From Erinaceus europaeus (taxonomy: Eukaryota > Chordata > Mammalia > Eulipotyphla > Erinaceidae): 64,000 nt of DNA. The stretch is from assembly GCF_950295315.1 (NCBI RefSeq), contig NC_080164.1, forward strand, positions 58,569,528-58,633,527, in the 5' to 3' direction. Made by a program: the position numbers and the translations under genes. A model generated the notes under the pieces. The model searched no databases and was not told the origin of the DNA. It worked only from the letters and a program-made list of their open reading frames with translations. Within the stretch, counting starts at the first letter, position 1; each line of letters begins with the position of its first letter. This document shows positions 3,333 through 41,800 of this stretch, piece after piece.

Positions 3333-3591
3333 GTCAGTTGGTAGCATAGCGCAAAGCACAAGGACTGGTGGAATGGTCCTGGTTCATGCCCCCGGCTCCC
3401 CACCTGCAGAAGAGTCATTTCACAGGCAGTGAAGCAGGTCTGCAGGTGTCTATCTTTCTCTCCTCCTCTCTGTCTTCCCCTCCTCTCTCCATTTCTCTCT
3501 GTCCTATCCAACAACGACGATATCAATAACAACAATATTAACTACAACAAGGTCACCAAAAAGGAATAAATAAATAAATAAATAAATAAAT
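3333..3591 (+). mobile_element. SINE-A inserted in L1 ORF2
   Basis: The head starts at GTCAGTTGGTAGC; box B-like GGTTCATGCCC, the CTCCCCACCTGCAG core, the CTCTGTCCTATCCAACAACG segment and a repeated AATA tail follow. It sits in an A-rich ORF2 site (a ~19-bp A-run precedes it), so the TSD edges cannot be placed exactly. Confidence 0.9.
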
Positions 3592-12135: not shown

Positions 12136-12262
12136 AAAAATGAATAAGTAAATATATGAAAGAAAAGAAACAAGCAAGAAAGGAAGCATCAGAGCAGGGG
12201 ATGAACTCAAAATTTCTTACATACTGGATGCTACTGGGGTATTTTGTAGACCCAACCTTTCT

Positions 12263-12410
12263 TTCTTTTCTCCTTCTTCTTCTTCTTCTCCTTCTTCTTC
12301 TTCTTCTTCTTCTTCTTCTTCTTCTTCTTCTTCTTCTTCTTCTTCTTCTTCTTCTTCTTCTTCTTCTTCTTCTTTTCCTTCTTCTCCTCCTTCTCCTCCT
12401 CCTCCTCCTT
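12263..12410. repeat. (TTC)n / (GAA)n microsatellite
   Basis: Impure TTC repeat with an uninterrupted (CTT)28 run at 12291-12374. It lies at the tail end of the inverted SINE-A, so it is likely an expanded A-rich SINE tail (GAA on the SINE strand). The poly-Leu and poly-Arg open frames across it are artefacts. Confidence 0.95.
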
Positions 12411-12606
12411 TTTTTATTTATTATTGTTGTCGTTGTTGGACAGGACAGAGAGGGGGAGAGAAAGACAGACACCTGCAGACCTGATTCACTGCCTGTGAAG
12501 CGACTCCCCTACAGGTGGGGAGCCAGGGCTCAAACCGTGATCCTTACATTGGTCCTTGAGCTTTGCAGTACCTGCGCTTTACCCGCTGAGCTACCGCCCG
12601 ACTCCC
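12411..12606 (-). mobile_element. SINE-A, inverted, between two pyrimidine tracts
   Basis: The minus strand starts GGGGAGTCGGGCGGTAGCTC and carries CACGGTTTGAGCCCTGGCTC (box B-like), the CTCCCCACCTGTAGGGGAG core and CTGTCCTGTCCAACAACGAC, before the GAA-rich tail. Both sides are TTC/TCC-rich. Confidence 0.9.
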
Positions 12607-12722
12607 CCTCTTCTTCTCCTTCTCCTTCTCCATCTTCTCCTTCTTCTCCTTCTCCTCCTCCCACTCCTCCTCTTCCTCCTCCTCCTCCTCCTTCTTCTTC
12701 TTTTTCTCCTTCTTCTTCTTTG
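12607..12722. repeat. CT/TCC-rich simple repeat
   Basis: Almost pure pyrimidine on the plus strand (TTCTCCTTCTCC-type units), upstream of the inverted SINE head. It may be the other side of a target repeat, or a TSD made of simple sequence. Confidence 0.85.
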
Positions 12723-13189
12723 AACTGGATGTCACATGCACATAATTTCATTAAGCACGCAGCCTCCACACCTCCCTAACCCTCTTTCCCCCCAGAGTTC
12801 CTTGATTTGATGCACTACACCATGCCCAGCACATGTTTCATTTCATGTTCTCCCTCCCTGTCCATAATTATTAGGTCCCACTTATAAGTGAAATCATTCG
12901 GTATTTGCCCTTCTCTTTTTGGCTTATCTCACTTAACACAATGTCTTCTAGTTCCATCCAAGATGATGCAAAGGTGATGACTTCATTGTTTTTAACAGCT
13001 GAATAGTATTTCATCACACACATATGACATATTTTTTTGGCCACTCATTTATCCTTGGGCATCAGGGTTACTTACAAGTTTGGACAATTACTAATTGTGC
13101 TGCTGTGAACATAGGTATATATTGATTTCTTCTGATAAGTATTTTAGTTTCCTTTGGATAAATCCCCAGGATAGAAGTAACTAGGACCA

Positions 13190-15302: not shown

Positions 15303-15401
15303 CCAAGAAAAATAATTTAACAGGAGCAATGCCACTGTTACTGTTTTTCAGATCACCTTAATACTTGGTCTAAAAGAACAATAAATTTTTATAAGAATAA
15401 A

Positions 15402-16527
15402 GAACTATACGCCACCAAGCTAGAGAATCTGGAAGGAATGGAACAATTCCTAGAAGCATATGCCCTTCCAAAACTGAACCAAGAAGAACTACAAAATCTA
15501 AATGCACCAATCACAGACAAAGAAATTGAAACCATTATTAAGAACCTCCCCAACAACAAAAGTCCTGGACCAGATGGCTTCACAAATGAATTCTACAAAA
15601 CTTTAAGGAAACAGTTAGTACCCATACTTCTTAAGCTTTTCCATAAGACTGAAGAAACAGGAATACTCCCTTGCACCTTCTATGAAGCCAACATCACCCT
15701 GATACCAAAAGCAGATAGGGACAGAACAAAAAAGGAAAACAACAGACCAATATCTCTGATGAACATAGATGCCAAAATATTAAACAAGATCTTGGCCAAC
15801 CAGATACAGCAACATATCAAAAAGATTGTTCATCACGACCAAGTGGGATTCATCCCAGGAATGCAAGGCTGGTTCAACATCCGTAAGTCAATCAATGTCA
15901 TTCACCACATCAATAAAAGCAAAGCCAAAAACCACATGATTATCTCAATAGATGCAGAGAAAGCCTTTGACAAAATCCAACACCCATTCATGCTCAAAAC
16001 TCTACAAAAAATGGGAATAGATGGGAAATTCCTCAAGGTAGTGGAGTCTATATATAGCAAACCTACACCCAACATCATACTCAATGGACAGAAGCTGAAA
16101 GCATTCCCCCTCAGATCGGGGACTAGACAGGGCTGTCCACTGTCACCGTTACTCTTCAACATAGTATTGGAAGTTCTTGCCATAGCATTCAGGCAAGAGA
16201 AAGAAATCAAAGGAATACAGATTGGAAGGGAAGAAGTCAAGCTCTCACTATTTGCAGATGATATGATAGTATACATAGAAAAACCTAAAGAATTCAGCAG
16301 AAAACTACTGGAAATAATTAGGCAATATAGCAAGGTATCAGGCTAGAAAATCAATGTACAAAAATCAGTGGCATTTCTTTATGCAAACACTAAATCTGAA
16401 GAAGAAGACATCCAGAAATCACTCCCATTTACTGTTTCAGCAAAATCAATCAAATACCTAGGAATAAAGTTGACCAAAGAAGTGAAAGATTGTATGCTGA
16501 AAACTATGAGTCGCTACTCAAGGAAAT
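15402..16527 (+). pseudogene. L1 ORF2 reverse transcriptase, near-intact then broken
   Basis: An open frame of 302 codons from 15438 to 16346 covers the RT fingers and palm: [111 protein letters not shown] and catalytic FADD (16251-16262). A TAG at 16344-16346 replaces the Tyr codon expected in SGYKIN. A one-base loss near 16490 shifts the frame before the non-L1 insertion. Confidence 0.93.
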
Positions 16528-16761
16528 TCTTCTTCTTCTAGCATTTGCCCTTCTTCCGTAGCCAGTCAACAGCGTCAGGTTGAGCCTGATGTAAAGTTTC
16601 GAGACCTCCTTTGAATCTGGAGAGGTGGCAGTCGTTGACTATGTGGGTCATAGTCTGTCTGTAGCCGCAGGGGCAGTTTGGGTCATCTCCGGCTCCCCAG
16701 CGATGGAACATAGCGGCGCACCGGCCATGGCCTGTTCGATAGCGATTGAGGAGGGCCCAAT
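16528..16761 (-). mobile_element. 3' end of a non-L1 LINE (RTE-like?), inserted in L1
   Basis: Foreign to L1: L1 reads ..CTCAAGGAAAT then ..GGAAATAGAAAATGA, and GGAAAT is repeated at 16522-16527 and 16762-16767, a short TSD. On the minus strand a frame of 73 codons (16759 down to the TAG at 16540-16538) carries [15 protein letters not shown], then a Cys/His motif [16 protein letters not shown] and DAVDWLRKKGK. The stop is followed at once by an (AAG)n tail. Such a C-terminal CxC..HxxxxC motif is found in several non-LTR retrotransposon clades, and a very short 3' UTR with a simple tandem tail recalls RTE-type elements. The clade is my inference. Confidence 0.8.
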
Positions 16762-18219
16762 GGAAATAGAAAATGATAACAAGAAATGGAAAGATATCCC
16801 ATGCTCATGGATTGGAAGAATAAATATCATCAGAATGAATATTCTCCCCAGAGCCATATACAAATTTAATGCAATACCCATCAAACTTCCACCAGGCTTC
16901 TTTAAGAGAATACAACAGACACTACAATCATTTATCTGGACCATGAAAACACCTAGAATTGCCAAAACCATCTTAAGGAAAAGAAACAGAAATGGAGGCT
17001 CCACACTCCCAGACCTTAAACTATATTATAAAGCCATCATCATCAAAACAGCATGGTACTGGAACAAAAACAGGCACACAGCCAGTGGAACAGAATCGAA
17101 AGCCCAGAAATAAATCCCCACACCTATGGACATCTAATCTTTGATAAGGGGGCCCAAAGGATTAAATGGAAAAAGGAGGCTCTCTTCAATAAATGGTGCT
17201 GGGAAAACTGGGTTGAAACATGCAGAAGAATGAAATTGAACTACTTTATCTCACCAGAAACAAAAATCAACTCCAAATGGATCAAAGACCTAGATGTCAG
17301 ACCAGAAACAATCAAATACTTAGAGGAAAACATTGGTAAAACACTTTCCCACCTACACCTCAAGGACATCTTTGATGAATCAAACCCAATTGCAAGGAAG
17401 ACTAAAGCAGAAACAAACCAATGGGACTACATCAAATTGAAAAGCTTCTGCACAGCCAAAGAAACTATCACACAAACAAAGACACCCCTCACAGAGTGGG
17501 AGAAGATCTTCACATGCCATACATGAGACAAGAAACTAATCACCAAAATATATAAAGAGCTCAGCAAACTTAGCGCCAAAAAAGCAAATGACCCCGCCCA
17601 AAAATGGGCAGAGGATATGAACAAAACATTCACTACAGAGGAGATCCAAAAGGCTAATAAATATATGAAAAACTGCTCTAGGTCACTGATTGTCAGAGAA
17701 ATGCAAATTAAGACAACACTAAGATACCACCTCACTCCTGTAAGAATGGCATACATCAAAAAGGACAGCAGCAACAAATGCTGGAGAGGTTATGTGGACA
17801 GTGGAACCCTTTTACATTGCTGGTGGGAATGTAAATTGGTACAGCCTCTGTGGAGAGCAGTCTGGAAAACTCTCAGAAGGCCAGACATGGACCTTCCATA
17901 TGATCCAGTAATTCCTCTCCTGGGGTTATAGCCCAAGGACTCCATAACACCCAACCAAAAAGAGGTGTGTACTCCTATGCTCATAGCAGCACAATTCATA
18001 ATAGCTAAAACCTGGAAGCAACCCACGTGCCCAACAACAGATGAGTGGCTGAGAAAGCTGTGGTATATATACACAATGGAATACTATGCAGCTATCAAGA
18101 ACAATGAACCCACCTTCTCTGACCCATCTTGGACAGAGCTAGAAGGAATTATGTTAAGTGAGCTAAGTCAGAAAGATAAAGATAAGTATGGGATGATCCC
18201 ACTCATCAACAGAAGTTGA
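16762..18219 (+). pseudogene. L1 ORF2 C-terminal half with shared stop codons
   Basis: Covers [20 protein letters not shown] through [20 protein letters not shown] to the ORF2 end at 18219 (GMIPLINRS). A one-base deletion near 17080 shifts the frame. Stops TGA (17524-17526) and TAG (17929-17931) lie in frame, and both recur in the young copy at 36.4-38.8 kb. In the Cys-rich box [18 protein letters not shown] the second Cys is Tyr (17791-17793). Confidence 0.93.
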
Positions 18220-19597
18220 GTAAGAAGATCTGAAAGGGAAACTAAAAGTAGGACCTGACCAAATTGTAAGTAGGGCACCAAAGTAAAAACCCTGTGGTGA
18301 GGGGTAGACATGCAGCTTCCTGGGACAGTGGGTGGTGGGAGTGGGAGGGAGGGATGGGTCACAGTCTTTTGGTGGTGGGAATGGTGTTTATGTACACTCC
18401 TAGTAAAATGTAGTCATATAAATCACTAGTTAATTAATATGAGAGGGGGAAAATTAATTGTATGTCTCGAGGTTTTTCAAAACACAAACTGAATCTTTTT
18501 AATATATAGGCTGTGTAATTGATAGGCATACTCTCTCAAAAGCCTAGACCAAGTAGATCAGAAGCAACCAATAGCACAGCTATATACAAGATACTGGGTA
18601 CTGTACAGCAAACCCTAACAAAAGGCCTTTTCAAAGTTAACCCAATTACCAAATAATGTGATGATAACATTAACTATCGATTGTCTTTTTGAACCCTAAG
18701 ACAGCAGGAACCTCACATCTCCACTATAGAGCCTCAACTTCCCCCAGTCCTAGAACCATTGGATAGGGCCCACTTTCCCGTATGCCTCTCCCAATCCATA
18801 TCAAATAATATTGCATCTGCCGATCACAACCTAACCAACACAACGATTGCCACCTCAACATGCTTCACTTCAGACTGTGTCCAGAGACTTCACGTGTGGA
18901 ATGACAACCCTTCAGCTTCATTACTCGGGTGAGACCTTTCCTTTCATAGTATACTCTAATTCCATCTCAGGTGGTTCACTTTCTAACAAAGTCTCAAAAC
19001 CTAGATATACACCAGTTTCTGTTAGAGAGAGCATATGTTCACACATATCCGTAAACTACTGCAAAATATATACCTGAAAGCAGAAGTACACTAGAGTTTG
19101 CAGTGTGTACCCACCAACAGTTCCTCTCCACTATTCCAAGCTTTGGGTCCATGATTGCTCAACAATTTGTTTGGCTTCGTATGTTAACTCTCTTTTCAGT
19201 CATCAGCTTCCAGATGTCATCAGGATGCCTGCCAGGTTTACCTGGACTGAAGACCCCACCAATGTGTCCTGGAGCTCCGCTTCCCCAGAGACCCACCCTA
19301 CTAGGGAAAGGGAGAGGCAGACTGGGAGTATGGACCGACCAGTCAATGCCCATGTTCAGCGGGGAAGCAATTACAGAAGCCAGACCTTCTACCTTCTGCA
19401 ACCCACAATGACCCTGGGTCCATGCTCCCAAAGGGATAGAGAATGGGAAAGCTATCAGGGGAGGGGGTGGGATATGGAGATTGGGTGGTGGGAATTGTGT
19501 GGAATTGTACCCCTCCTACCCTATGGTTTTGTTAATCCTTTCTTAAATAAAAAAGAAAAAAAATTTTATAAGAATAAATAAGGCAAATAATGACATC

Positions 19598-29781: not shown

Positions 29782-31080
29782 TTTTAATTTTTATTAGTGA
29801 CTTATAAATGATTAACAAGACTGTAAGATAACAGGGGTATAATTCCATACAGTTCCCACCATCAGAGTTTCATGTCTCATCCCCTCTACTGGAAACTCCT
29901 CTGTCCCTTATCTCTCTGGGAGTATGGACCAGAACTCTTTATGGGGTACAGAAGGTGGAAGGTCTGGCTTCTGTAATTGCTTCTTTGCTGGACAAGAATA
30001 TTGGCAGACCCATATTCCCAGCCTGTTTTTGTCTTTCCCTAGTTGGATAGGGCACTGGAGAGGTAAGGCTTTGGAACACACTGGTGAGGCAGTCTGCCAA
30101 AAGAAGTCAGGAGGGAATCATAGTAGCATCCATAACTTGGTAGTTGAAAGATGATGATACAAAGCAGGATAAATTGTTTAATAAGCAGGAACCCAAAGGT
30201 AGGAATAGAGCAGATGAAATTTGGGGCCTTTGCATGGGAAGAAGCTAGGGAGTCTATTTTAGGCATGTTCAAAGGGGGCTATGACTTTAGTAATTTTTTT
30301 CCTGAGCCTGATAACTAATATGCAGGTGGTCTATACTGTTGTCTGGAAAGATGGTATCAGAGTTGAGAATAGGGCTATAAAGCTGGACTAGGGCACAGAG
30401 TCGCTCTGAAACATGTGGATAGTATATAAATACCATCAACTATTTACCCATTCGATCTGGCCTAGGCCCATATATATTGATCATTAACAAAGGAACCTGT
30501 GTAATCTCTGAGTCCCTGTCAGTCTGAGCTCAAAGTTCATGATCACAGCTAGGAAAATTTTATGCTACACTCATTTCAGAACCAGCCTTCTTTGAGTGAC
30601 AGAGTAGGTTGACGCAGCCTCCCTTTGGAGAGTGGGGCAGTCCCTACCATGCTCTACAGTGAGGGCAAGGTCCTGGAGAGGACCATAAGAGGGCTTATGA
30701 TGATGTTCCTGATGGAGATGACCAACGATGCTTCTTCTTCTTCTAGCGTTTGCCCTTCTTCCATAGCCAGTCAACAGCGTCAGGTTGAGCCTGATGTAAA
30801 GTTTCAAGACCTCCTTTGAATCTGGAGAGGTGGCAGTCGTTGACTATGTGGGTCATAGTCTGTCTGTAGCCACAGGGGCAGTTCGGGTCGTCTCTGGCTC
30901 CCCAGCGATGCTAGAAGGATCTAGATGATGCTAGGGATCTAGGCCTATCTTATCTAAGTGAGAATCCAAGGATTCCCTGACTGGAACCCCAAATGACGGG
31001 GTAGTCTGGTATTGACCAAATAGGCCATCATTATAGTGTGCCAGTCTCTTGCCCTTATTCAGTTATTGTAAGCTTTTCTT
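29782..31080 (-). mobile_element. Older L1 3' UTR, inverted, interrupted by a non-L1 LINE
   Basis: Colinear with the inverted long 3' UTR at 20.3-21.4 kb (AGGGGTATAATTCCATACAG.. GTCTGGCTTCTGTAATTGC.. GTGAGGGCAAGGTCCTGG.. CTCTTGCCCTTATTCAG) but more diverged, with a different terminus (TTGTTAATCATTTATAAGTC on the minus strand). The segment 30733-30905 is foreign. Confidence 0.82.
30733..30905 (-). mobile_element. Second copy of the non-L1 LINE 3' end
   Basis: Shares its 3' end with the insertion at 16528-16761 but is truncated 61 bp earlier at the 5' side. CGATGCT flanks it (30726-30732 and 30906-30912), so truncation point and target differ: a separate insertion. The minus-strand frame carries [18 protein letters not shown] and ends at a TAG (30745-30743) followed by (AAG)n. 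Over the shared ~175 bp I count seven differences, each a C/T or G/A change at a CpG in one of the copies. Confidence 0.8.
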
Positions 31081-36360: not shown

Positions 36361-37467
36361 CAATCCCCACACCTACAGACATCTAATCTTTGATAAGGGG
36401 GCCAAAAGGATTAAATGGAAAAAGGAGGCTACCTTCAATAAATGGTGCTGGGAAAACTGGGTTGTAACATGCAGAAGAATGAAATTGAGCCACTTTATCT
36501 CACTAGAAACAAAAATCAACTCCAAATGGATCAAAGACCTAGATGTCAGACCAGAAACAATCAAATACTTAGAGGAAAACATTGGTAAAACACTTTCCCA
36601 CCTACACCTCAAGGACATCTTTGATGAATCAAACCCAATTGCAAGGAAGACTAAAGCAGAAACAAACCAATGGGACTACATCAAATTGAAAAGCTTCTGC
36701 ACAGCCAAAGAAACTATCACACAAACAAAGACACCCCTCACAGAGTGGGAGAAGATCTTCACATGCCATACATGAGACAAGAAACTAATCACCAAAATAT
36801 ATAAAGAGCTCAGCAAACTTAGCGCCAAAAAAGCAAATGACCCCATCCAAAAATGGGCAGAGGATATGAACAAAACATTCACTACAGAGGAGATCCAAAA
36901 GGCTAACAAATATATGAAAAACTGCTCTAGGTCACTGATTGTCAGAGAAATGCAAATTAAGACAACACTAAGATACCACCTCACTCCTGTAAGAATGGCA
37001 TACATCAAAAAGACAGTAGCAACAAATGCTGGAGAGATTGTGGGGACAGAGGAACCCTTTTACATTGCTGGTGGGAATGTAAATTGGTACAGCCTCTGTG
37101 GAGAGCAGTCTGGAAAACTCTCAGAAGGCCAGACATGGACCTTCCATATGATCCAGTAATTCCTCTCCTGGGGTTATAGCCCAAGGACTCCATAACACCC
37201 AACCAAAAAGAGGTGTGTACTCCTATGCTCATAGCAGCACAATTCATAATAGCTAAAACCTGGAAGCAACCCACGTGCCCAACAACAGATGAGTGGCTGA
37301 GAAAGCTGTGGTATATATACACAATGGAATACTATGCAGCTATCAAGAACAATGAACCCACCTTCTCTGACCCATCTTGGATGGAGCTAGAAGTTATTAT
37401 GTTAAGTGAGCTAAGTCAGAAAGATAAAGATGAGTATGGGATGATCCCACTCATCAACGGAAGTTGA
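36361..37467 (+). pseudogene. L1 ORF2 C-terminal part in the young copy
   Basis: Reads [19 protein letters not shown] through [20 protein letters not shown] to GMIPLINGS. It has the TGA (36773-36775) and TAG (37177-37179) found at the equivalent places in the 15.4-kb copy, plus a private one-base deletion near 37012 that shifts the frame ahead of the Cys-rich box. There both Cys codons of CWRDC are kept. The open frame 36323-36775 fuses older-L1 codons to this copy by chance. Confidence 0.92.
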
Positions 37468-38846
37468 GTAAGAAGATCTGAAAGGGAAACTAAAAGTAGG
37501 ACCTGACCAAATTGTAAGTAGGGCACCAAAGTAATAACCCTGAGGTAAGGGGTAGACATGCAGCTTCCTGGGACAGTGGGGGGTGGGAGTGGGTGGGAGG
37601 GATGGGTCACAGTCTTTTGGTGGTGGGAATGGTGTTTATGTACACTCCTAGTAAAATGTAGTCATATAAATCACTAGTTAATTAATATGAGAGGGGGAAA
37701 ATTAATTGTATGTCTCGAGGTTTTTCAAAACACAAACTGAATCTTTTTAATATACAGGCTGTGTAATTGATAGGCATACTCTCTCAAAAGCCTAGACCAA
37801 GTAGATCAGAAGCAACCAATAGCACAGCTATATACAAGATACTGGGTACTGTACAGCAAACCCTAACAAAAGGCCTTTTCAAAGTTAACCCAATTACCAA
37901 ATAATGTGATGATAACATTAACTATCGATTGTCTTTTTGAACCCTAAGACAGCAGGAACCTCACATCTCCACTATAGAGCCTCTACTTCCCCCAGTCCTG
38001 GAACCATTGGATAGGGCCCACTTTCCCGTATGCCTCTCCCAATCCATATCAAATAATATTGCATCTGCCGATCACAACCTAACCTACACAACGATTGCCA
38101 CCTCAACATGCTTCACTTCAGACTGTGTCCAGAGACTTCACGTGTGGAATGACAACCCTTCAGCTTCATTACTCGGGTGAGACCTTTCCTTTCATAGTAT
38201 ACTCTAATTCCATCTCAGGTGGTTCACTTTCTAACAAAGTCCCAAAACCTAGATATACACCAGTTTCTGTTAGAGAGAGCATATGTTCACACATATCCGT
38301 AAACTACTGCAAAATATATACCTGAAAGCAGAAGTACACTAGAGTTTGCAGTGTGTACCCACCAACAGTTCCTCTCCACTATTCCAACCTTTGGGTCCAT
38401 GATTGCTCAACAATTTGTTTGGCTTTGTATGTTAACTCTCTTTTCAGCCATCACGTTCCAAATGCCATCAGGATGCCGGCCAGGCTTCCCTGGATTGAAG
38501 ACCCCACCAAGGTGTCCTGGAGCTGTGCTTCCCCAGAGACCCACCCTACTAGGGAAAGGGAGAGGCAGACTGGGAGTATGGACCGACCAGTCAACGCCCA
38601 TGTCCAGCAGGGAAGCAATTACAGAAGCCAGACCTTCTACCTTCTGCAACCCACAATGACCCTGGGTCCATGCTCCCAGAGGGATAGAGAATGGGAAAGT
38701 TATCAGGGGAGGGTGTGGGATATGGAGAATGGGTGGTGGGAATTGTGTGGAATTGTACCCCTCGTACCCTATGGTTTTGTTAATTAATACTTTCTTAAAT
38801 AAAAATAAAAAATAAAATAATAATAATAATAACAATTAAAAAAAAA
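36361..38846 (+). mobile_element. Young L1 type A, 5'-truncated, 14-bp TSD
   Basis: Starts at CAATCCCCACACCTACAGAC in ORF2 and ends with the short-form type A 3' UTR and an AATAATAATAAT/A-rich tail. GAAAATAAGAAAAC flanks it at 36347-36360 and 38847-38860. It is inserted in the older L1. Confidence 0.95.
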
Positions 38847-38860
38847 GAAAATAAGAAAAC

Positions 38861-41800
38861 CATACAAAAGATCAACGAAAGTAATGCTGGTTCTTTGAAA
38901 GAGTGAACAAATTTGACAAACCTTTAGCCAGACTCACAAAACAAAGAAGGGAGAATACCCAAATAAATCAGATTGTAAATGAAAGAGGAGATATCACAAC
39001 AGACACTAAGAAATTCAACATACCATGTGAGGCCTCTATGAACAACCATATGCCACCAAGCTAGAGAACCAGGAAGAAATGGATAATTTCCTAAATACCT
39101 ACAAACTTCTAAAATTAAATAAAGAGGAACCAGATAATATGAACAGGCCAATCACAGCCAATAAAATTGAAACAGTTATAAAAAAAACCTTCCCAAACAT
39201 AAAAGTCCTGGACCAATGATTTTACAAATGAATTCTACAAGGAAGAGTTAATACCTCTACTTTTAAAAGTCTTCCAGAAAACTGAAGACACAATATGCCC
39301 TTCCAGCTTCTATGAAGCCAACATCACTCTGATACCAAATTAAGACAGAGACACAACCAAAAAAGAAACTACAGACCAATATCTCTGATGAACATAGATG
39401 CTAAAATACTGAACAAAATATTAGCCAACCGGATACAGAAGTAGGTTAAAAAGATTGTTCATCATGACCAGGTGGGATTTATCCCAGGCATGCAAGGTTG
39501 CTTTAATATATATAAATCAATCAACGTGATCCACCACATCAATAAAAGCAAGATCAAACACCACATGGTTATATAAATAGATGCAGAGAAAGCCTTTGAT
39601 AAAATCCAGCACCCCTTTATGATCAAAATGCTAAAAAAAAAATGGGAATAGATGGAAAATTCTTCAAGATAGTGCAATCTATATATAGCAAACCTACAGC
39701 CAACATCATACCCAATAGTGAAAAACTGGAAGCATTTCCCCTCAGATCAGGTACCAGGCAGGGATGCCCCCTATCACCATACTATTCAACATAGTGTTGG
39801 AAGTTCTTGCCATAGCAATCAGGCAGGAGCAAGGAAATCAAGGGATACGGATTAGAAGAGAAGAAGTCAAACTCTCCCTATTTGCAGATGACATGATAGT
39901 ATACATAGAAAAACCTAAAGAATCCAGCAAGGAGCTTTTGAAAACCATCAGGCAATACAGTAAGAAGTCAGGCTACAAAATTAACATTCAAAGGTCAGTG
40001 GCATTCCACTGTGCAAACACTAAATTAGAAGAAGTTGAAATCCAGAAATCAATTCCTTTTACTATAGCAACAAAAACAATAAAATATCTAGGAATAAACC
40101 TAACCAAAGAAGGGAAAGACTTGTTTACTGAAAATTATGAGTCACAACTCAAAGAAACAGAAAAAGACACAAGGAAGTGGATATTCCATGTTCATGGGTT
40201 GGAAGAATTAACATCATCAAAATGAATATACTACCCAGAGCCAGATACAAATTTAATGCTATCCCCATCAAGATCCCAACTACATTTTTAGGAGAATAGA
40301 ACAAATTCTACAAATGTTTACCGGGAACCAGAAAAGACCTAGAATAGCCATAAAAGTCTTGAGAAGAAAGAACAGAACTGGAGGTACCACACTCCCAGAT
40401 CTCAAATTGTATTATAGGGCCGTTGTTATCAAAACTGCTTGGTACTGGAACATGAATAGATACACTGAACAGTGGAATAAAATTGAGAGCCCAGAAGTAA
40501 GCCTCCACACCTATGGACATCTAATCTTTGGCAAAGGTGCCCAGACTATTAAATGGGGAATGGTGAGTATCTTCAACAAATGGTGTTGAAAAAAAAAAAT
40601 GGGTGGAAACATGCAGAAGAATGGATCTGAACCACTACATTTCACCAAACACAAAAGTAAATTCCAACTGGATCAAAGACTTGGATGTTAGACCAGAAAC
40701 TACCAGTTACTTAGAGGAAAATATTGGCAGAACTCGGTTCTGCATTAATTTTAAAGATATCTTCTATTGCTATGCTTCACATTGGTTTGGTCTCACTCTC
40801 CCCCCACCGGGAGATGTGGCTTAGCCCCTGCTAGTTTCGCGCCTCACTTTCTCCCCGCCCCCTATGCTACACAGTTCCGGAGTTCTGGCCGTGGCCACTG
40901 GAGGAGAAGGATGCAGGCCAGATCTGTGTGGTGATTGGTTTGGGTTAGTTTGTGAATCGTTGTTCATGAATAAAGAAATACAGCTTCCTGGCCCAGCCGT
41001 GTGTCCCTGAGTCTCTGTTACCGCCACGAAGCTAGCCTGACCTGTTGGAGCCCCGAACCTAACGACAATCTTCAATTAAACAAATCCTATTACAAAGAAG
41101 ACTAAGGCAAGTATAAACAAATGGGACTACAACAAATTAAAAAGCTTCTGCACAGCAAAAGAAACCACTACCCAAACCAAGAGACCCCTCACAGAATGTG
41201 AGATCTTTACATGCCATATATCAGACAAGCGTTTAATAACCAAAATATATAAAGAGGTTGACAAAATCAACAAGAAAACAAATGTCCCCATACAAAAATG
41301 GGGGGAGCACACAGACAGAATATTCACCATAGAAGAGATCCAAAATGCCAACAAACATGAAACAATGCTCCAAGTCATCAACTGTCAGAAAAATGCAAAT
41401 AAAGGCAACAATGAGACACTACTTCACTTCTGTGAGAATGTCATACATCAGAAATGGTAACAGCAGCAAATGCTGGAGAGGTTGTGGGGTCAAAGAAACC
41501 CTCTTGCACTGCTGGTGGGAATGTCAATTGGTCCCACCTCTGTGGAGAGCAATCTGGAAAACTCTCAGAAGGCTATAAAAGGTCCTACACTATATAGGAC
41601 CCTGCAATTCCTCTCCTGGGGATACATCATAAGGAACCCAACACACCCATCCCAAAAGATCTGTGTACACATATGTTCATAGAAGCACAATTTTTAATAG
41701 CCAAAACCTGGAAGCAACCCAGGTGTCCAACAACAGATAAGTGGTTGAGCAAGCTGTGGTATATATACACAATGGAATACTACTCAGCTATTAAAAATGT

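Follow-up and report, generated by a model that had tools for sequence, protein, structure and literature searches.

The window, by which we mean the whole 64,000-nucleotide stretch of Erinaceus europaeus DNA analyzed here, carries on its plus strand a 5'-truncated L1 (15402–19559) that runs from ORF2 onward, retains a reverse transcriptase (RT) domain (RVT_1, E 4e-40) and is flanked by a duplication of its own (approximately 15383–15401 and 19560–19578; 19 nt, one mismatch). ORF2 of this L1 is broken by 234 bp of foreign sequence (16528–16761) that reads on the minus strand. The insert is bordered by two copies of GGAAAT, on the left at 16522–16527 and on the right at 16762–16767, which match each other exactly; two randomly chosen positions in the window share an identical 6-mer with a frequency of about 0.0005. 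Read on the minus strand, the insert contains the last 73 codons of an open reading frame (16538–16761) with a CCHC motif (C-x-C-x7-H-x4-C), and its TAG stop codon (16540–16538) is followed directly by an (AAG)n tail, AAGAAGAAGA, at 16528–16537. The pattern of tail plus stop (14 bases, one mismatch allowed) was met twice in the window, where 0.04 occurrences would be expected, both times at copies of the element. The observed/expected ratio of CpG was 0.69 in the insert versus 0.13 in the window. The sequence-only reading had described a non-L1 segment lying between GGAAAT repeats, 73 minus-strand codons closed by TAG and an (AAG)n tail, and a Cys/His motif; the codons, stop and tail read as it said, the motif is present in the form given above, and the segment was recovered both at 16528–16761 and through comparison with uninterrupted L1 relatives. 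Elsewhere in the window, a long simple repeat rich in pyrimidines, resembling (CTT)n and (CTC)n, occupies positions 12220–12760.

The same 3' end recurs, in shorter form and with another truncation point, on the minus strand at approximately 30732–30910. The two window copies are identical at 171 of 178 aligned bases; all 7 differences fall at CpG sites, and none of the 158 non-CpG positions differs. A candidate duplication, CGATGC, borders the shorter copy (30726–30731 on the left, 30906–30911 on the right); counting the next T extends it to 7 nt, and in the right copy CGATG belongs to the element sequence as well (microhomology). The whole-genome search of the 234-bp segment proposed in the sequence-only reading found near-identical copies, some with RT upstream: in the hedgehog's own genome (2.72-Gb assembly), all 40 scored matches, from 458 candidates, were approximately 98–100% identical to the insert. 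Pairwise differences among 22 copies (20 fetched plus both window copies) averaged 0.6% outside CpG and 11.8% within it, and the window insert differed from the other 21 copies by 0.32% outside CpG, figures that are biased low because the compared copies are the best matches to the insert. Matches to the fragment and its relatives were not confirmed in viral contigs, prokaryote genome contigs or plasmids. A weak tblastn match at 3349–3414 (E 0.041), whose frame reads through stops and resembles SINE sequence, was dropped.

Longer copies carry the domains of a LINE. L002 contains an open 499-codon frame whose C-terminal end equals the window sequence but for single residues, so that a stretch near-identical to the Vingi-like frame of the insert closes it. 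Residues 14–239 of this frame match RVT_1 (E 8.3e-25), and no further Pfam family was found in it at E ≤ 0.1. Upstream, both copies scanned contain an AP-type endonuclease domain (Exo_endo_phos; E 6.2e-12 in L063 and 7e-12 in L036), and 11 of the 18 loci checked are open throughout the first 300 codons. Endonuclease and RT lie in one frame in L020, which spans 993 codons from ATG to TAG with two internal stops. None of the five long copies followed is intact: a stop interrupts the frame not just in L020 but in each of the four others fetched (L065–L068), and the 3' end pattern was not found by script in three of these four. RNase H was not found after the RT either in the 499-residue C-terminal frame of L002 or in any of ten relatives of 221–340 residues, which cover the post-RT part and gave no Pfam family at E ≤ 0.01. 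By its sequence, then, the insert is the last 73 codons, the stop and the (AAG)n tail of an endonuclease/reverse-transcriptase LINE, and the earlier proposal that it is the 3' remnant of a 5'-truncated non-LTR retrotransposon other than L1 is borne out by the longer copies.

In PDB searches by sequence, the nearest entries to the L002 frame were R2 proteins (best E 2e-6), and the first 300 residues of L063 were nearest to a bacterial catabolite repression control protein (E 1.7e-4), with weaker matches to L1 endonucleases (E 0.05–0.07); the best match of the window fragment had E 0.24, and a 314-residue relative had no match. A two-sequence profile of the C-terminus drew 29 protein relatives at E ≤ 0.001, and an 11-sequence profile drew 1004 at E ≤ 1e-5; at least three of the 120 listed among these 1004 are named from fishes (eel, grouper and coelacanth). 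The CCHC motif comes close to the zf-RVT family, which was matched under the Pfam cut-off by the 88-residue window frame (E 0.14) and, at E ≤ 1, by 11 of 26 members (best E 0.012, also under the cut-off), and 74 residues of the window frame gave no zf-RVT match. DUF6753 was matched by four of the 26 members (best E 0.011). One predicted protein of 89 residues (P0002) has about 21 residues identical to the window fragment and is otherwise unlike it; it is perhaps another copy of the family.

Analysis of the copies revealed several marks of mobility. Truncation points differ among the fetched copies, and the (AAG)n tail was present in 18 of 18 copies measured. Duplications of 6–12 nt were found at the junctions in 13 of 18 copies, one of which (L026) is doubtful; this set consists of 16 of the 20 fetched copies and the two window copies, L010, L016, L020 and L024 having been left out since their 5' junction is undefined. 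A junction duplication of at least 6 nt was absent in 5 of the 18 copies, and in L019 a 12-nt match is displaced from the junction. The rate of chance duplication is estimated at about 7% per copy, from the 6-mer rate of 0.0005 and about 140 placements tried in each copy. From 2379 candidates 40 were scored, all at 97% or more, and these yielded 30 loci covering the endonuclease region. In four of the 30 (L038, L041, L060 and L064) the 5' part lies in inverted orientation, its leader set against an internal break in a twin-priming-like arrangement; L038 and L041 break at nearly one place and so may not be independent. Two others (L042 and L044) have an internal deletion that keeps the leader and the 3' end, and these are likely non-autonomous derivatives. 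Another Vingi copy, L047, contains about 280 foreign bases (1073–1354) with a 14-base overlap of element sequence at the edges, which looks like a later insertion.

The variable truncation and the short duplications fit target-primed reverse transcription, and the insert very probably arose in this way, as a 5'-truncated insertion of either a young LINE of the Vingi type or one of its internally deleted derivatives. An AP-type endonuclease would have nicked the L1 DNA after ...GGAAAT, and the freed 3' end would have primed reverse transcription from the (AAG)n tail of the element RNA; synthesis would have stopped after about 234 bases, and a staggered second cut would have given rise to the 6-bp duplication. 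These enzymatic steps are drawn from established LINE biology. The host L1 shows the signatures of target-primed reverse transcription as well, but it encodes another protein, the insert has the (AAG)n tail, and the duplications measure 19 nt for the L1 versus 6 bp for the insert.

The insertion site was compared with other L1 copies. A 300-bp empty-site query, consisting of the L1 flanks joined through a single GGAAAT, matched at all 40 scored genome places (97–98% over 298–300 bases; 1080 first-look candidates), so that the insertion amounts to 234 bp plus the 6-bp duplication. An older L1 in the window (39044–40733) is also uninterrupted at the insert site. Because these relatives are uninterrupted, and because a 501-bp query running from L1 through the insert into L1 was unique among the 40 places scored for it, the insert most likely landed after the host L1, the order that the sequence-only reading had also given. 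The insert sequence taken alone leaves room for a history in which the insert already lay within the L1 source, and L1 and insert were then copied as a unit or duplicated; this history is extremely unlikely, since the 501-bp query matched end to end at only one of the 40 scored places (1665 candidates), namely the window's own locus. A second young L1 in the window (36362–38812) is flanked by a separate duplication, about 16 nt long, and adjoins an older L1 fragment; the 3' part of the host L1 is 97.4% identical to this second young L1, with differences at 48 of 2407 non-CpG sites. Within the preferred reading of a later, target-primed insertion, the stub could come from an internally deleted, non-autonomous Vingi derivative mobilized in trans, an origin that we take seriously without leaning towards it. 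L042 and L044 have the same 3' end as the stub, and in the hedgehog row of Table 2 of PMC3183009, Vingi-1N3_EE is the most numerous family below 1% divergence, with 311 copies. Against this, full-length and deleted elements share the bases that precede the tail, so that the window cannot tell the source of the stub.

Very probably the element is of the Vingi type, an Ingi-related clade, an assignment made by domain layout and literature descriptions. Kojima, Kapitonov and Jurka reportedly described the Vingi clade in 2011, together with hedgehog Vingi-1_EE and its Vingi-1N derivatives, and the abstract of that naming paper is said to mention non-autonomous derivatives formed by internal deletion. 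Compared by description, the element is like Vingi-1_EE and Vingi-1N in being a young non-L1 hedgehog LINE that encodes endonuclease and RT in a single frame, has no detectable RNase H and gives rise to deleted derivatives. The traits of Vingi were recovered as an AP-type endonuclease and RT in one ORF (the L020 frame, with its two stops), as the absence of an RNase H domain after RT in the frames scanned, and as internally deleted, non-autonomous derivatives at 2 of 30 loci. Ingi itself has RNase H, whereas the element here is without a detectable one. RTE and BovB elements are short LINEs with endonuclease and RT, short duplications and a simple 3' tail, as in the element here. Membership in the RTE clade, as a BovB-like element, is accordingly suggested by the truncated short 3' end, the simple tail and the short duplication of the insert, but these features suit Vingi equally well, and the C-terminus of the element is presumably unlike the RTE type, which we counted against that placement. 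RTE-BovB and RTE-X consensus sequences have been reported for the African hedgehog (PMC12026660), but the named young non-L1 LINE family of the hedgehog, in Table 2 of PMC3183009, is Vingi (Vingi-1N3_EE), and we consider an RTE element very unlikely. Vingi fits better than RTE because endonuclease and RT are joined without a detectable RNase H, because internally deleted copies exist, and because of the hedgehog context. The earlier description of the insert as an RTE-like or related non-LTR retrotransposon thus holds for the non-LTR part; its RTE-like part gives way to Vingi, which the domain layout and the deleted copies fit.

Vingi is named in hedgehogs in passages of PMC3183009 and PMC5753468, and the former speaks of "older likely horizontal transfers in mammals such as Vingi TEs in hedgehogs" as a suggestion. 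Passages of PMC5753468 and PMC9004415 state that the human genome holds Vingi traces, which indicates that the clade was once present in other mammals. Vingi has also been reported in locust (PMC3391268) and lizard (PMC3747384). A 2025 study of the African hedgehog uses the classes I-Jockey, RTE-BovB and RTE-X, and the word Vingi is absent from it (PMC12026660).

The majority sequence of the 30 endonuclease-region copies begins 91 nt before the ATG, and upstream of that point it dissolves; the leader is different or shorter in L050, L056 and L058. From the first base of the element, the 91-nt leader of L063 (1410–1500) and of 23 other aligned copies fits an HDV-like ribozyme. In alignment columns, the predicted fold consists of P1 (1–7/30–36), P2 (11–16/65–70; pseudoknot), P3 (17–19/27–29) and P4 (44–47/53–56); P1 has 7 bp and starts with G at the element 5' end, and P2, P3 and P4 are nested, with P2 as the pseudoknot. 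A ribozyme descriptor, written after the leader had been seen, finds a match with its start precisely at −91 in 18 of the 30 copies, and it is also satisfied by 2 of 4000 shuffles of one leader and at 7 start positions on both strands of the 64-kb window. In HDV-like ribozymes the catalytic C lies within a short J4/2, and P1.1 consists of two pairs. The leader has CUGA before P2', but the proposed J4/2 would be 8 nt long and P1.1 has just one Watson-Crick pair, a weak point of the fold.

Paired cells amounted to 95.2% in P1 (counted in 21 distinct rows of the 24 leaders, chosen from 30), 96.8% in P2, 100% in P3 and P4, and 97.4% over all helices, percentages that lean high since L041, L050, L051, L053, L056 and L058, with indels, replaced leaders or more changes, were left out. 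With partners slid, pairing fell to 38–49%, a control biased in favor of the structure, which had been derived from the very sequences tested. Covariation was not found in the 24 leaders, no pair having changed on both sides, and column shuffles also gave 97.4% paired (402 of 500 as high); variation among such young copies therefore neither supports nor opposes the structure. The Rfam model HDV_ribozyme (RF00094) matched at full length, with P1 from the first base of the element, in all four loci tried alone. It was the top match of the 141-base stretch in L055 (25.1 bits, E 0.044), L063 (24.0 bits, E 0.071) and L061 (21.1 bits, E 0.25), and in L039 (231 bases; 16.9 bits, E 2.7) it ranked second by score and third by E-value. 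The gathering score of 50 was not reached in these four loci, where the best leader had 25.1 bits, and a 37-kb scan of ten whole loci gave no HDV match. In a whole-genome search with RF00094 (86 scored of 48892 candidates), one place was listed, G000:C3:137496668-137496750, with 32.3 bits, below the cut-off.

We narrowly favor the view that the Vingi LINE of the hedgehog, and with it at least two deleted derivatives (L042 and L044), would begin with a working HDV-like ribozyme whose self-cleavage fixes the exact 5' end of the RNA. Such a ribozyme at the start of the longer copies would trim the transcript to an exact 5' end. To our knowledge, no 5' ribozyme has been reported for Vingi, and no report of an HDV-like ribozyme for Vingi was found in the literature searched, which did not include the naming paper. 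The Ingi and L1Tc elements of trypanosomatids, whose clade is related according to the literature, carry HDV-like ribozymes in their 5' Pr77 stretch, as described in passages of PMC4035085.

The kind of element found here is already described in hedgehogs. The literature already presents Vingi as a non-L1 LINE that has recently expanded in a placental mammal, and the present insertion adds one copy to it; what this genome contributes is the anatomy of the element (domains, tail, duplications, twin-priming-like inversions and deletions) and a testable claim about the leader ribozyme, which may be the sole new point. If true, the leader ribozyme would be a feature unreported in a young LINE of a placental mammal and shared with trypanosomatid Ingi/L1Tc; it would explain the sharp 5' ends of the copies and tie a mammalian LINE to the ribozyme-bearing Ingi/L1Tc elements.
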